From contig NZ_LMSP01000008.1 of assembly GCF_001429545.1 (NCBI RefSeq), positions 50,445-114,444 of the forward strand: a DNA stretch of 64,000 nt, read 5' to 3'. Below the pieces are notes generated by a model, which did no database searches, was not told the DNA's origin, and worked only from the letters and a program-made list of their open reading frames with translations. Below are positions 36,043 to 40,938 of the stretch, one piece after another. A program made the translations under genes and the position numbers. The stretch comes from Paenibacillus sp. Soil787. Its GTDB lineage: Bacteria > Bacillota > Bacilli > Paenibacillales > NBRC-103111. The stretch's first letter is position 1; each line of letters starts with the position of its first letter.

Positions 36043-36543
36043 TTGAAATATACAGTGCAATATATACCTCTAAGTAAGATTAAGCCTGAAAGCATCGCTG
36101 CTAAGACCGCACTAAGAAATAAGGAGTTTAAAAAAGTTGCGCAAGATCTAATGCACCTGTTGATTGTGCGTAAAAGCAGAAAAGAAGGTGGTTACGTCAT
36201 CCTAGGCGGACATCATCATTTCGATTTCCTCAAAAAGCATACAAAAAAAAGTTCTGCTGTATGTCTTGTAGATGAAAGTAAGATTTCTGCAAGTGTAGGA
36301 ATATGGATTAATCGCTTCAGGAAACGACCACTGCCTTATGATATACCTGAAATCTCACCGGATCGGATTGCAGTTAACAGCTGGTCTATCATTCGTACTT
36401 TTCTGAAAAGGGAGCCCCGATTTCGCAGGCTTTCCCGAAGACAGCAATTGAAGGTACTTCGGCTTGGTATTCAATATAGGAAAACAACGATACGATCCAT
36501 GCAAGCAAAAGTAGAAGATCTATTAAAAAAGATTGTGCATTGA
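36043..36543 (+). CDS. ParB/Srx-fold-like protein of unknown function
   Basis: A 166-residue basic protein with a TTG start behind GAGGAGG. The first 70 residues follow the ParB N-terminal pattern: YIPLSKIKPES, LLIVRKSRKEGGYVILGGHHHFDFLKKH, with HHH where ParB proteins have GERR-like residues. The rest is basic and helical (KREPRFRRLSRRQQLKVLRL). Length is short for a chromosome-partition ParB and there is no ParA neighbour. It may be a small nuclease or DNA-binding regulator. Confidence 0.55.
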   Translation: MKYTVQYIPLSKIKPESIAAKTALRNKEFKKVAQDLMHLLIVRKSRKEGGYVILGGHHHFDFLKKHTKKSSAVCLVDESKISASVGIWINRFRKRPLPYDIPEISPDRIAVNSWSIIRTFLKREPRFRRLSRRQQLKVLRLGIQYRKTTIRSMQAKVEDLLKKIVH

Positions 36544-36547
36544 ATAC

Positions 36548-36640
36548 AAAAAAGGAAGGGGCTGCCGCGGTGAAGTGACCCCAATTGTTAGACACAGTCT
36601 AACAATTGGGGTGCAGTTCACGGGCAGCTCCTTCCTTTTT
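36548..36640. terminator. bidirectional terminator with inserted palindrome
   Basis: AAAAAGGAAGGgGCTGCC (from 36549) pairs with GGCAGCtCCTTCCTTTTT (to 36640). The stem lies between the convergent ParB-like and GT-C genes. A 50-bp palindrome sits in its loop. Without that insert the stem would close on a loop of about three bases. Confidence 0.85.
36571..36620. mobile_element. 50-bp MITE-like palindrome with IS3-type ends
   Basis: TGAAGTGACCCCAATTGTTA and the inverted TGAACTGCACCCCAATTGTT face each other around ACA. Both resemble ends of IS3-family (IS150 group) elements. CGG occurs directly on both sides (36568-36570, 36621-36623), fitting the 3-bp duplication of that family. No transposase remains. 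Confidence 0.6.
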
Positions 36641-36647
36641 CTCTAAA

Positions 36648-39600
36648 CTAAAAAAACGTCCATGACGTAGACCATTTTAGAAAATGGCTGACGTAGTTTT
36701 TATTGATGACAGCACCAGATAATATCGGATAAAACATGATAAACAGTAGAAGCACTGTGCCCAAATACATATAGATCCATTTTGCTCGAAGCTTCAAATG
36801 TTCATGGGCATATTTAATGACGTAAGTGATACATAGGATCATAAAAGGAACGGTTGCGAAAAAGTGGTAAATAAAGGTGAGCCGAGGCACGCCGACCCAT
36901 GGCAAATATTCTGCCGCTAGTCCGATAAGGACAACGATCATCCACTTATCTTTCGTCTTCAGGCTAATATAGATAGCTGCAAAAACGGCTAAGATACCGG
37001 GCCACCAAATGGCTGGATTTCCCATTGCGACAATGCTGGAAACTTGGTCCGGGGCGAGTGAAACTTGCCCATAGTACCAAATCGGTTTCCGAATAATGGG
37101 CCACTCCCACCATGAGGAGGCAAATGGATGGGTAGCTACAAGGTGACTGTGGTAGTTGTACATAGATTTTTGGAAAGAGAGTATAGCCGATAAGTCGTGT
37201 CCTGGTCCGGGAACATTTAAAAAGGGAATATAACTTAACGTGTAAATGACAACCGGGACAAGAGCGAACATGGCGAATGCCGTACAGATTGTTTTCCATA
37301 ATAAAGGACGAAAACTGTGAGCGAAAGTTTGCGTTTGACGAATAGCCGATGTGTTCGATTTATGTTTGGCTTGTGTTGTTAGAATAAGTGTTGTATGTCG
37401 ATATTCTTTATATTTTTCATATAAAACTAAGCCTAGAATAACGGCCAAACCGACTCCAGCGTAAAGATCAATCCATTTACAAGCAGCGCCGATACCAAAA
37501 AATAACCCGGATAAGCTAAGCGAGATCAATGCAGTTTTGAGTGGAGCTCGGCTGAGGCTGAGTACGTAATATTTGTACATAAAGTAGTACATCATCATAA
37601 TGAAAAATACACCGTATACATCAATGGTCGCAATCCTTGTCTGAGTAAAATGCATAAAATCGCAGGCCAGTAAAAAAGCGGCAATAAACCCGTATTCGGT
37701 TTTTCCGAACAATTTTTTAGCGAACAGATACATAAGCGGAATCATGGCAATGCCAAAAAGTGTGCCCACAATTCTCCATCCGAACGGATTCATGCCAAAT
37801 ATGGCGATACCCATGGAAATTAGCACTTTTCCTAGTGGCGGGTGGGTTGTTTCGTATGGCTCTATGCTGTGTAAATGCTCATAGGCTGTTCTGGCGTGAT
37901 AGATTTCATCAAAATACATGCTGTTCATAAACGAAGGTTGGCGTGGAACGGTGTCGGGTTCGTTAAATAGGTTTTGTGCTTGTGCCAAAGCATCATTGCC
38001 CATGTTCAATGGGATCTGTTTGAAAATAGGGATGGGTTCCTTCTGCTGATCGTTCATAAATGCAAGCTCATACAGCGATGCACCAGGTTTAACTACGGTA
38101 ATCTTAGCAAATTGCGCTGAGAAAGAAACAGACGACTGCTTCCACTGAAAAACGGTGCCCCCATTCAAGGTAATAGTGGTCACGGGTGTCCAATGGATCG
38201 TATCGTTCGACTGTTCGATTTGAAATTGGCCATCTCCGATACCGCCATACCACATGACACGATTGACGGATTCGATGTGGTTGAAATCTACGTAGAAGCT
38301 TTCTTGTGCTAGCTTTGGCTTCCAATCTTTTTGAGGAGCGCTGAATGAGCCGAGCTGGTATAGAGCAATGGCGGCGTACAGCAGCGTCAAACCGGTCATG
38401 GCAATTTTATCTTTTTTCGTTAGGTTGGTGAGCAGTTTCATTGGAGCTACGGCTTGCGCCGCATTCTGTTTGGACAGTGATTTAGGGAATTTGATCTCCT
38501 GCGGATCTGATTTTCTGGACTTAAAGTGCTGAACCTTGTTTCTGATGTAAATATCCCATCCTACATAAATGGCATAAACAGCTAGAATCACATGGCATAG
38601 GGACACTATCTTCATAAAAATATCAGGGCCATTCGTGAAATATTGCTGGTCCAAACTTAATTTGAATACATAAGCTACGTTAGCAAATTGGGTGAAGCTT
38701 AGCGAAATGAACAAATATAGGATTCTTTTATCTTTTATCCCTAAATAACTAATCAGTGAAAGCAGAATGACAGGATACCCATATCTCTCGTGCATACCGG
38801 TTTTGAATACGAAAACTAGCAAACAGACGAGAAATGCAGAATAGTAAAATCTCGAAGTGTCCCGACTTTTGAAAAACAAAAATGCGGTAATAGCTACAAT
38901 AGCCACTACAATTATATTTCCCCAAGTGTTCATACTCATAAAAAGCCACTTCGTTGAGGCTGGCGATCCGTTGAAGCCGAATAGGGTATACAGGTTAGCC
39001 GCATTCAAAGATGCGTAAGGATAACTTAGAAACATGGTTTTATACAGATCCAGAATCCAATACCATGGTTTGTGAAGTGAGAAGGGAAGCACGCCAAGGA
39101 CAAAAACAACTGCACTCATGGCAAGTGAAGAAACCCACGTTTTCACATTTTTTTGTTTGATTAATGGATACAGCAGCAGCGGGGTGAAAATAATCGCTTG
39201 TGGTTTGATCAGGAAGGCTAAGGCCAATATCCCAGCTGCTTTTGGAACTTTTTTATCGGTAAGAGCAATAATCATTAAGAAAACTACAAGTGTATAGACG
39301 GAATCAATCTGCCCCCAAACCGTAGAGTTTAGGTAGACACTGGGGTTTATGAGGTATAGGAAAGCAAATAGGGCGGAAACTTGATGGTTCATGTGTTTTT
39401 TGGCTAGTCCATAAATCAGATACGAAGTGAGAAGATCGGCAATGATGGCAGGGAGTTTGATCAAAATGACGGCAGCCGCTGATTGATAATTGAGAGAGAA
39501 AATATGCTTAATCGCCCCGATCACATAGAGGATGTAGATGTAGCCGGGGGGATAATCGACAAACATTTGATCATTGTAAAAGCCGGACAAGCCTGCCGAG

Positions 39601-40466
39601 AATGCATGCTCGGACCAAGCGCTGAAATCAATAAAATCAATGGGATGCCCTTGAATGAGGGGGGCGCCAATAATTCTTAGGGCAAAGCCTGCAAACATTA
39701 ACAGTCCGATATAGGTGGGAACAACGTTTTTTGGTTCTGTAAGTCTACCATTGTGGTCACTTGCTTTTGCTGCCATTCGAATACAAACAATTAGAAATAA
39801 GAGAGAAAATAATAGGGTAAATAGGAAAAATCCTGTATGAGAGCTCAGGTTGGCATGGTTAGTAACGGAACTGGGCTGATCGTCTGGAGAAACGGAAAAG
39901 ACTTGTACCCCAGCTGGAACAGCGGCCACTTCCTCCAGTGAAAAATCATCGAAATCAGCTGCGCCTGTATTCAAACTGCCATACCCTCCGAGGCGCACAG
40001 CAACGACAATCTCCTTCTGGTTGGCACCTGTTTTTCCATAAAAATTGACTAGTTCCCACTTCCCGTTCGTATCTTTGATGTCCCGGGACATGGAACCTAC
40101 GCCAAGTACTGAAATGTTAGCACCAGTCTTATCAGATCCGATACCGCTAGCCCTAACCCAACTGGAGAGCTTATAGATGGCGCCGGATTTTACTTGTACC
40201 CGCTGTATCCACCTGGCGTCATTAGGTTGAATATTATGTATGCGCAAAAAGTGGCTGCCTGCATGTGCCTGACCGCTTTCCAACGTAAATTTGCTCACAT
40301 CAGAGCCTTGCTGATAAGCATCTTGCGTCCATGCGGTTGGCTTATCTGATTCCACAGATTCAAATGAACCGTTTATTAATCCAATGCCATTCTCAATTGA
40401 GTACGCATTCAAACCGGGGATTAATAAAAATAAAAATAAAAAAAACAGTGCCAAGCTTTTCTTCAT
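36648..40466 (-). CDS. giant double GT-C membrane glycosyltransferase with carbohydrate-binding domains
   Basis: A 1272-residue protein. Order: signal peptide; CBM4/9-like beta domain (about 27-190, LINGSFESVESDKPTAW); a first GT-C module with about ten helices (about 210-660, VDYPPGYIYIL); an F5/8C-like beta domain (about 720-830); and a PMT/GT39-type module (about 860-1272) with FDEIYHARTAYEH and ETTHPPLGK. GT-C enzymes use lipid-linked sugars outside the membrane. It is encoded alone, opposite to the EPS cluster. Two GT-C modules plus binding domains in one chain is unusual. Acceptor unknown: protein or surface glycan. Confidence 0.75.
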   Translation of the reverse strand: MKKSLALFFLFLFLLIPGLNAYSIENGIGLINGSFESVESDKPTAWTQDAYQQGSDVSKFTLESGQAHAGSHFLRIHNIQPNDARWIQRVQVKSGAIYKLSSWVRASGIGSDKTGANISVLGVGSMSRDIKDTNGKWELVNFYGKTGANQKEIVVAVRLGGYGSLNTGAADFDDFSLEEVAAVPAGVQVFSVSPDDQPSSVTNHANLSSHTGFFLFTLLFSLLFLIVCIRMAAKASDHNGRLTEPKNVVPTYIGLLMFAGFALRIIGAPLIQGHPIDFIDFSAWSEHAFSAGLSGFYNDQMFVDYPPGYIYILYVIGAIKHIFSLNYQSAAAVILIKLPAIIADLLTSYLIYGLAKKHMNHQVSALFAFLYLINPSVYLNSTVWGQIDSVYTLVVFLMIIALTDKKVPKAAGILALAFLIKPQAIIFTPLLLYPLIKQKNVKTWVSSLAMSAVVFVLGVLPFSLHKPWYWILDLYKTMFLSYPYASLNAANLYTLFGFNGSPASTKWLFMSMNTWGNIIVVAIVAITAFLFFKSRDTSRFYYSAFLVCLLVFVFKTGMHERYGYPVILLSLISYLGIKDKRILYLFISLSFTQFANVAYVFKLSLDQQYFTNGPDIFMKIVSLCHVILAVYAIYVGWDIYIRNKVQHFKSRKSDPQEIKFPKSLSKQNAAQAVAPMKLLTNLTKKDKIAMTGLTLLYAAIALYQLGSFSAPQKDWKPKLAQESFYVDFNHIESVNRVMWYGGIGDGQFQIEQSNDTIHWTPVTTITLNGGTVFQWKQSSVSFSAQFAKITVVKPGASLYELAFMNDQQKEPIPIFKQIPLNMGNDALAQAQNLFNEPDTVPRQPSFMNSMYFDEIYHARTAYEHLHSIEPYETTHPPLGKVLISMGIAIFGMNPFGWRIVGTLFGIAMIPLMYLFAKKLFGKTEYGFIAAFLLACDFMHFTQTRIATIDVYGVFFIMMMYYFMYKYYVLSLSRAPLKTALISLSLSGLFFGIGAACKWIDLYAGVGLAVILGLVLYEKYKEYRHTTLILTTQAKHKSNTSAIRQTQTFAHSFRPLLWKTICTAFAMFALVPVVIYTLSYIPFLNVPGPGHDLSAILSFQKSMYNYHSHLVATHPFASSWWEWPIIRKPIWYYGQVSLAPDQVSSIVAMGNPAIWWPGILAVFAAIYISLKTKDKWMIVVLIGLAAEYLPWVGVPRLTFIYHFFATVPFMILCITYVIKYAHEHLKLRAKWIYMYLGTVLLLFIMFYPILSGAVINKNYVSHFLKWSTSWTFF

Positions 40467-40569
40467 AATTCACCTGCCAGTTTATGTATATTGCTTATAC
40501 GCGTATTATCTTGGACGAGATCAATAAAGTCAATCAACTTTTTCCTTTGAAAAATTGATGTAATGGACG

Positions 40570-40800
40570 CGCGGGATAGTCAGCCGAGAAGTCAATTTCT
40601 GACTTCTCGGACTTAGTGGGCGAGCTTTGGCTCGCAGAAAATTGTGCGCAAGGTCGTCGGATCGGCCGCCACCGGGCGCTAGCGCACAAAAATTGTGCGC
40701 AAGGTCGTCGGATCGGCCGCCACCGGGCGCTAGCGCACAAAAATTGTGCGCAAGGTCGTCAGATCGATCGCCACCGGAAGCTAACCTACAAGGTAGTACT
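40570..40800. repeat. palindromic hairpin plus three 51-bp tandem repeats
   Basis: CCGAGAAGTC-aatttct-GACTTCTCGG at about 40578-40610 matches the core hairpin of the first repeat array. ATTGTGCGCAAGGTCGTC then recurs at 40641, 40692 and 40743, giving exact 51-bp units with GCGCACAA-aaa-TTGTGCGC hairpins between them. Fifty-one bases is 17 codons, so the frame stays open on either strand, but no ribosome-binding site supports a gene. Confidence 0.85.
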
Positions 40801-40938
40801 TCTTTCATGTGGTCACTCAACTTTGAGCGGTTTCGATACGATAGAGGTTTATTCATTGGTTGAGTTTTGCTGATGAGTCAATCAATCCCAACCAGTCTCT
40901 AACCGTATTTTCGATAGCTTTTGTCGGCGCGGGCCAAG

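Follow-up and report, generated by a model that had tools for sequence, protein, structure and literature searches.

A 50-bp palindrome of insertion-sequence ends in the loop of a Paenibacillus terminator suggests an IS3-family element that seeks out terminator loops

Introduction

How does a palindrome made of transposon ends come to occupy the loop of a transcription terminator, and does the element behind it target such loops or merely tolerate them? The question is raised by a single long hairpin between two convergent ORFs (plus-strand stop at 36541-36543, minus-strand stop at 36648) in the window, i.e., the whole stretch of 64,000 nucleotides of Paenibacillus sp. Soil787 analyzed here. 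A sequence-only reading had described this hairpin as a 50-bp palindrome derived from the ends of an insertion sequence (IS) and situated in the loop of a bidirectional terminator, a description borne out by reading of the sequence, by folding and by comparison with IS ends. Judged from sequence, these 50 bp were inserted, with duplication of a 3-bp target, and are built from the ends of an IS3-family element. With high probability, it represents a non-autonomous mini element of IS3-family (IS150-like) ends whose transposase selects the loops of intrinsic terminators, and the comparisons suggest a family of mobile elements that seeks out transcription stop signals in many bacilli.

Results and Discussion

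Parts of the hairpin

The features of the locus are as follows.

36043..36543, plus strand: upstream ORF of 166 aa, with its stop 4 bases before the terminator; query for the orthologous sites
36548..36566, no strand: host terminator, 5' half with its A-run and GC arm, AAAAAAGGAAGGGGCTGCC (sequence read; empty orthologous terminators)
36568..36570, no strand: CGG, left copy of the 3-bp target duplication (sequence and empty-site comparison)
36571..36620, minus strand: 50-bp mini element, running from the left IS tip (36620) to the right IS tip (36571)
36571..36593, plus strand: arm TGAAGTGACCCCAATTGTTAGAC, a right-end type tip TGAAGTGACCCC fused to core AATTGTTAGAC
36594..36596, no strand: loop ACA (sequence, folding)
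36597..36620, minus strand: arm GTCTAACAATTGGGGTGCAGTTCA, with left-end sequence TGAACTGCACCCCAATTGTTAGAC
36621..36623, no strand: CGG, right copy of the target duplication (sequence and empty-site comparison)
36623..36640, no strand: host terminator, 3' half with its GC arm and T-run, GGCAGCTCCTTCCTTTTT; it overlaps the end of the duplication by its first G
36648..40466, minus strand: convergent long ORF of 1272 aa, ending beside the terminator

The outer hairpin (36548-36566 with 36623-36640) is an ordinary bidirectional terminator, consisting of A-run, GC arm, GC arm and T-run, and its sequence, a GC-rich hairpin and then a T-run after a gene, is that of an intrinsic terminator. Removal of the 50 bp and one CGG leaves GCTGCCGCGGGCAGC, in which GCTGCC-GCG-GGCAGC closes on a loop of 3 nt, in agreement with the loop of about three bases that had been predicted. 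The region 36520-36670 folds at -72.1 kcal/mol, and none of 200 dinucleotide shuffles was as stable (z -10.5). The tips of the element are TGAAGTGACCCC and TGAACTGCACCCC, and its cores mirror each other; since the left IS tip lies at 36620 and the right one at 36571, the element points along the minus strand. The 50 bp hold no ORF and no transposase of their own, which makes the element an IS derivative and not an IS.

The 15-base core matches the window twice (at most 2 mismatches, 0.08 expected), solely in the two arms, and a search of the 7.66-Mb draft genome (47 contigs) at up to one mismatch returned the window site alone. The 23-mer of the arm at 36571-36593 is found exactly in genomes G005 and G011 and with 1 mismatch in G058. 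A scan of the window against Rfam gave nothing at gathering scores. Elsewhere in the window, at 40530-40873, short ORFs on both strands contain a repeated motif, GGGRSDDLAHNFCALAP..., apparently an intergenic tandem repeat.

Empty sites in related genomes

Orthologous loci were retrieved by means of the 166-aa upstream gene, which is present in 20 of 30 same-genus genomes, its own included. The comparison set comprised 20 other loci from 19 genomes, one of which gave two hits, and the 180 bases downstream of the gene were read in each. Within this span the 50-bp insert is absent from all 20 loci; the one match to the core at up to 3 mismatches in the orthologous loci, in L243, lies more than 1 kb away from the site. 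An uninterrupted terminator stands in six of the closest relatives: it reads AAGGAGCTGCCGCGGGCAGCTCCTT in L239, L243 and L244, GGGGCTGCCGCGGGGCAGCTCC in L240, and is slightly altered in L241 and L242. L245, which is also close (86%), has no such hairpin at the site. Empty sites, which the sequence-only reading had proposed to look for, thus exist, and the observation that it named as refuting, a long hairpin common to all relatives, was not made. Because the orthologous loci are without the 50 bp and six of them retain the uninterrupted terminator, the insertion most likely arose on the branch of the window strain.

The full-length parent element

The exact two-arm pattern of the window element gave no match across the genome contigs, after which a single left end was used as query. 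Left tip and core together occur exactly in at least 120 stretches of genome contigs and in 29 genomes of a class-wide sample of 398, and at up to one mismatch in 46 of 104 family genomes. Among 238 unique left-end anchors, 113 had less than 1.6 kb of sequence inside. Left and right ends were paired without use of flank symmetry, which yielded 43 pairs, and target duplications of at least 3 bp flank 33 of them (including L061, probably a false pairing). Thirty of these 33 measure 1430-1453 bp. A full IS3-family element with the same ends, for which the sequence-only reading had proposed to look, does exist, at ~1.44 kb. Its right ends are mostly TGAAGTGACCCC, after which come an A-rich stretch and GTTAGAC.

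The full copies show two separate ORFs. In the two copies scanned (L156 and L235) OrfB scored 363.6 and 348.1 bits against NF033516 (cut-off 160) and Pfam rve was matched, i.e., they possess the DDE integrase core and fit the IS3 transposase model. The ends likewise conform to the IS3 pattern of 5'-TG...CA-3' inverted repeats with duplications of 3-5 bp, the duplications in the 33 pairs being of 3-4 bp. Identity to the OrfB of L156 is 53% for ISEcB1, ISKpn1 and IS150 and 48% for IS1397. In the tree, which does not include L038 (its match being short) or IS2 (which gave no hit), these four group together, next to or within the Bacilli copies and well away from IS3; a number of forks are open, and the exact place of IS1397 is unsure owing to its long branch.

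Since many of the genomes are drafts, full copies may be missing from them, the window strain included. No close transposase was found in its draft, which has a distant one (38%) and, beside a transposase scrap, a decayed right end. The decayed right end, TGAAGTGACCCCAAAAAGTTAGAC, is located at L237:1447-1470 (G000:C22, about 24.1 kb) near the scrap, and is the only other trace of this kind of IS seen in the genome. For the genome's other IS3 transposase (C13, 38% identity) the best inverted repeats are unrelated.

The mini elements and their origin

Seventy units were collected, from which 32 left ends of full copies and one decayed right end (L237) were split off. The remaining 37 mini elements measure 47-53 bp, and 34 are non-orthologous once three that share a locus with a fourth are dropped. 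Two IS ends face to face around ACA and flanked by CGG had been proposed, and this arrangement stands for the window; most comparable minis, however, resemble the left-end hairpin of the IS, with an inner arm ending in TTCA. With respect to tip types, six of the 37 combine one left and one right tip (the window, L005, L010, L142, L148 and L158), while both tips are of right type in L262 and of left type in the other thirty. Paired changes that preserve the stem were observed in L004 and L170 (GGA with TCC) versus L017 (GCA with TGC), and in L169 (CGG with CCG). A phage search with one mini locus found nothing.

Two routes to such an element have to be weighed. In one of them, to which we give a little less than an even chance, a full IS entered the loop and then lost its body in situ by deletion between the left-end inner arm and the right end. 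These two stretches repeat each other directly, if imperfectly, over ~23 bases, and what stayed behind would be 50 bp that still have both tips and the duplication. Such a deletion would account for the constant 47-53 bp and the intact tips. The left-end inner arm, GGAGG-like box included, is retained in most minis, whose sequence ends precisely in the IS tip, and L158 carries a full right-end arm, as another crossover point would yield. Yet in the window, L005 and L010 a right-type tip is joined to the outer left core while the loop has the left-end orientation; one simple deletion is insufficient for this tip order, and more than one step would be needed. Moreover, the fetched loci include no site at which one genome has a full copy and another genome a mini.

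Alternatively, the 50-bp unit may have been inserted as such, as a mobile MITE served in trans by a related transposase, which is nearly as likely to be right as wrong. The window element has the IS-like ends, the lack of coding capacity and the target duplication of a MITE; its tips, one left-type and one right-type, are intact as in the full IS, its hairpin is near-perfect, and duplications of at least 3 bp flank 13 of the 34 minis (21 are without). A distant transposase and a decayed right end are all that its own genome shows, which also speaks for supply in trans. Instead of several dispersed copies, however, this draft genome holds a single one (core at up to one mismatch). IS ends 3 bp apart are perhaps too close for synapsis, which counts against insertion of the unit as such, as do the similar minis of G014 and G016 (L169 and L171), which share ~180-200 bp of flank and on that account may belong to a larger repeat.

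Flanks of ~200 bp are 84-98% similar between genomes at L003, L004, L017 and L170, and also between L169 and L171. In the latter two the flank is shared in opposite orientation, and it may represent a larger dispersed repeat that contains the mini. In L260 (positions 1458-1538, G011), the mini is flanked by a 15-base direct repeat, AAAGTTCGTTCAATC, which is identical to the complete loop of the terminator there, as though all of that loop had been duplicated.

Insertion into terminator loops

Terminators were judged by stem and A/T-runs, and the flank stem score also counts these runs, as a result of which shuffled flanks outscore random positions. Over the 43 pairs the mean score is 9.65, and the highest shuffled-flank mean in 500 shuffles is 6.3. 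Scores of at least 9 were reached by 28 of the 43 pairs and by 26 of the 33 with duplications, versus 99 of 5760 random positions (1.7%), a comparison in which copies within one genus or genome are partly dependent and may share ancestry. Seven of the 33 and eight of the ten pairs without duplications score below 9. The 34 minis have a mean score of 9.97 (highest shuffled mean 6.62, 500 shuffles), with 19 at 9 or above and 15 below; in the control, where the flank of the left end of a full copy was set against the IS interior, 0 of 32 reached 9.

One-sided flanks show an A-run with a GC arm in 110 of 194 cases versus 874 of 9636 random positions. The longest A-run on the left averages 5.1 and the longest T-run on the right 4.6, versus 2.5 for A on the right and 2.3 for T on the left. 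Target terminators show no orientation bias: with L061 left out, the A-run is longer in 15 of 32, the T-run in 12 of 32, and the two are equal in 5 of 32. The pattern is also seen within single genomes. All five paired copies of G259 score at least 9, and its two unpaired anchors have a left flank like half a terminator; in G495 four of six paired copies do so, and its one unpaired anchor is without such a flank.

The sequence-only reading had left open whether the element targets or tolerates terminator loops. It is conceivable that the IS inserts anywhere and that copies in terminator loops survive as harmless, and filling of a site by a mini does deepen the predicted fold (in the window from -30.4 kcal/mol emptied to -67.8 filled). 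This explanation is nonetheless improbable. The 26 of 33 full copies in rebuilt hairpins, against the random rate, argue for targeting and not for mere tolerance; full copies part the arms by 1.4 kb and so are no harmless stem extensions; and other intergenic DNA should be equally tolerant, so that insertions would not be expected to be confined to loops of a few bases. A chance palindrome or an assembly artefact can practically be dismissed, even though the assembly is a draft of 47 contigs, given the failure of all shuffles to fold as well, the exact IS ends and the comparable minis at 33 other non-orthologous sites.

The left end and a possible mechanism

Selection of terminator loops by the transposase, the preferred reading, would depend on recognition of a symmetric hairpin, as an extruded cruciform or as a symmetric duplex, rather than of a sequence, since the stems differ between sites. 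A mini copy would then extend the stem and thereby keep a terminator; that termination continues and that the insertion is neutral are predictions from folding. A full copy parts the arms of the terminator but would offer a hairpin of its own. The left end of a full copy forms a hairpin with a U-run and then a start codon behind it in 31 of 32 cases, and the inner arm of this hairpin bears a GGAGG-like box, likely the ribosome-binding site of orfA, in 31 of 32. Left ends fold at a mean of -31.0 kcal/mol versus -15.2 for right ends. Read-through RNA from a flanking gene would tend to end at the left-end hairpin, and for this reason the terminator position would not be left bare by a full insertion; in the same RNA the hairpin would bury the ribosome-binding site of the transposase. 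A buried ribosome-binding site has been reported for ISPpu9, an IS whose insertions lie in REP sequences (PMC8450116). An element that resides in terminators would be well served by a left end joining a terminator-like hairpin to a buried ribosome-binding site.

A broader proposal, which we put forward tentatively and hold to be rather less probable than not, is that this Bacilli branch of IS3 elements reads DNA shape, takes almost any intrinsic terminator hairpin and swaps in its own left-end terminator, while its 50-bp hairpin offspring insert as stem extensions, thus remodelling terminators. Target choice guided by structure suggests a route by which a transposon avoids genes and terminators grow.

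Comparison with known elements

Insertion within palindromes by related IS is already known. IS1397 and ISKpn1 are reported to insert into palindromic REP units (PMC1525189), and the copies inspected here lie in a long palindrome with a stem score of 11 (IS1397) and in an imperfect one with a score of 6 (ISKpn1). They resemble the Bacilli IS in transposase (48% for IS1397 and 53% for ISKpn1 to the OrfB of L156), in left tips (TGAACTGCACCCCAA, TGGACTGCACCCCAA), in length (~1.43-1.45 kb), in duplications of 3-4 bp and in insertion within a palindrome, the last being shared, with a short duplication, by the 26 full copies and the window element. Their targets, however, are reported to be REP units of one sequence family (PMC1525189), whereas those of the Bacilli IS are intrinsic terminators rather than REP units, judging from stems whose sequence changes from site to site and which have A- and T-runs at their borders.

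ISEcB1, a name taken from the RefSeq annotation, has matches in 117 records of E. coli; among the matches listed (60), 12 hits and L318 were read. Ten of these represent the yfbM-nuoN site; with the remaining three, the distinct sites among the matches listed number four. In E. coli B REL606 (L322), ISEcB1 lies in the loop of the nuoN terminator at yfbM-nuoN, with CATG duplicated and a score of 9, and E. coli K-12 has the empty nuoN terminator. Another copy lies in the loop of the fumC-fumB terminator, a six-pair hairpin, with CCGA duplicated and a score of 7. A plasmid site, with the duplication GTTC and a score of 5, is doubtful; that at ybcW of BL21(RP) has neither palindrome nor duplication (score 4). 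ISEcB1 is thus like the Bacilli IS in its OrfB (53%), its left tip, which is the same, its length (1441 bp) and its use of terminator loops with 4-bp duplications at two of the four distinct sites among the matches listed; it differs in a left-end inner arm which, judged by eye, is less complementary to the tip. The IS1397, ISKpn1 and ISEcB1 sites make it possible that the whole branch chooses palindrome loops, terminators being the main target in Bacilli.

Structure-guided target choice by a DDE transposase is known, to our knowledge, from few cases, and it could be tested at once with ISEcB1 in the nuoN loop of E. coli B and the empty site of K-12. Searches of the open-licence PMC literature brought up no report of IS3-family insertion into terminator loops. 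Other elements approach the terminator differently. IS1272 and TnSha1 are reported also to target inverted repeats, terminator hairpins included, without sequence specificity, yet to insert at the base and replace or delete the hairpin, with no target duplication (PMC5678879, PMC4923244). The window element is no stem-loop replacer of the IS1272 type, for it lies in the loop, preserves both arms and has CGG duplicated. Group IIC (bacterial class C) introns share the terminator as insertion landmark, but are described as RNA retroelements that insert downstream of it (PMC3522654), whereas the window has a DNA element in the loop. MITEAba12 is, like the window mini, without transposase, bounded by IS ends and flanked by target duplications in part of its copies; unlike it, MITEAba12 is reported to measure 111-114 bp and to have 9-bp duplications and many copies, with no predicted terminator (PMC6382973).

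The left tip is also found with another interior, AGTATGGTATACTG, in elements from Clostridiales/Papillibacter records (L025, L033, L036, L039, L043, L081, L105 and L119), several of which start next to GC arms that resemble half a terminator.
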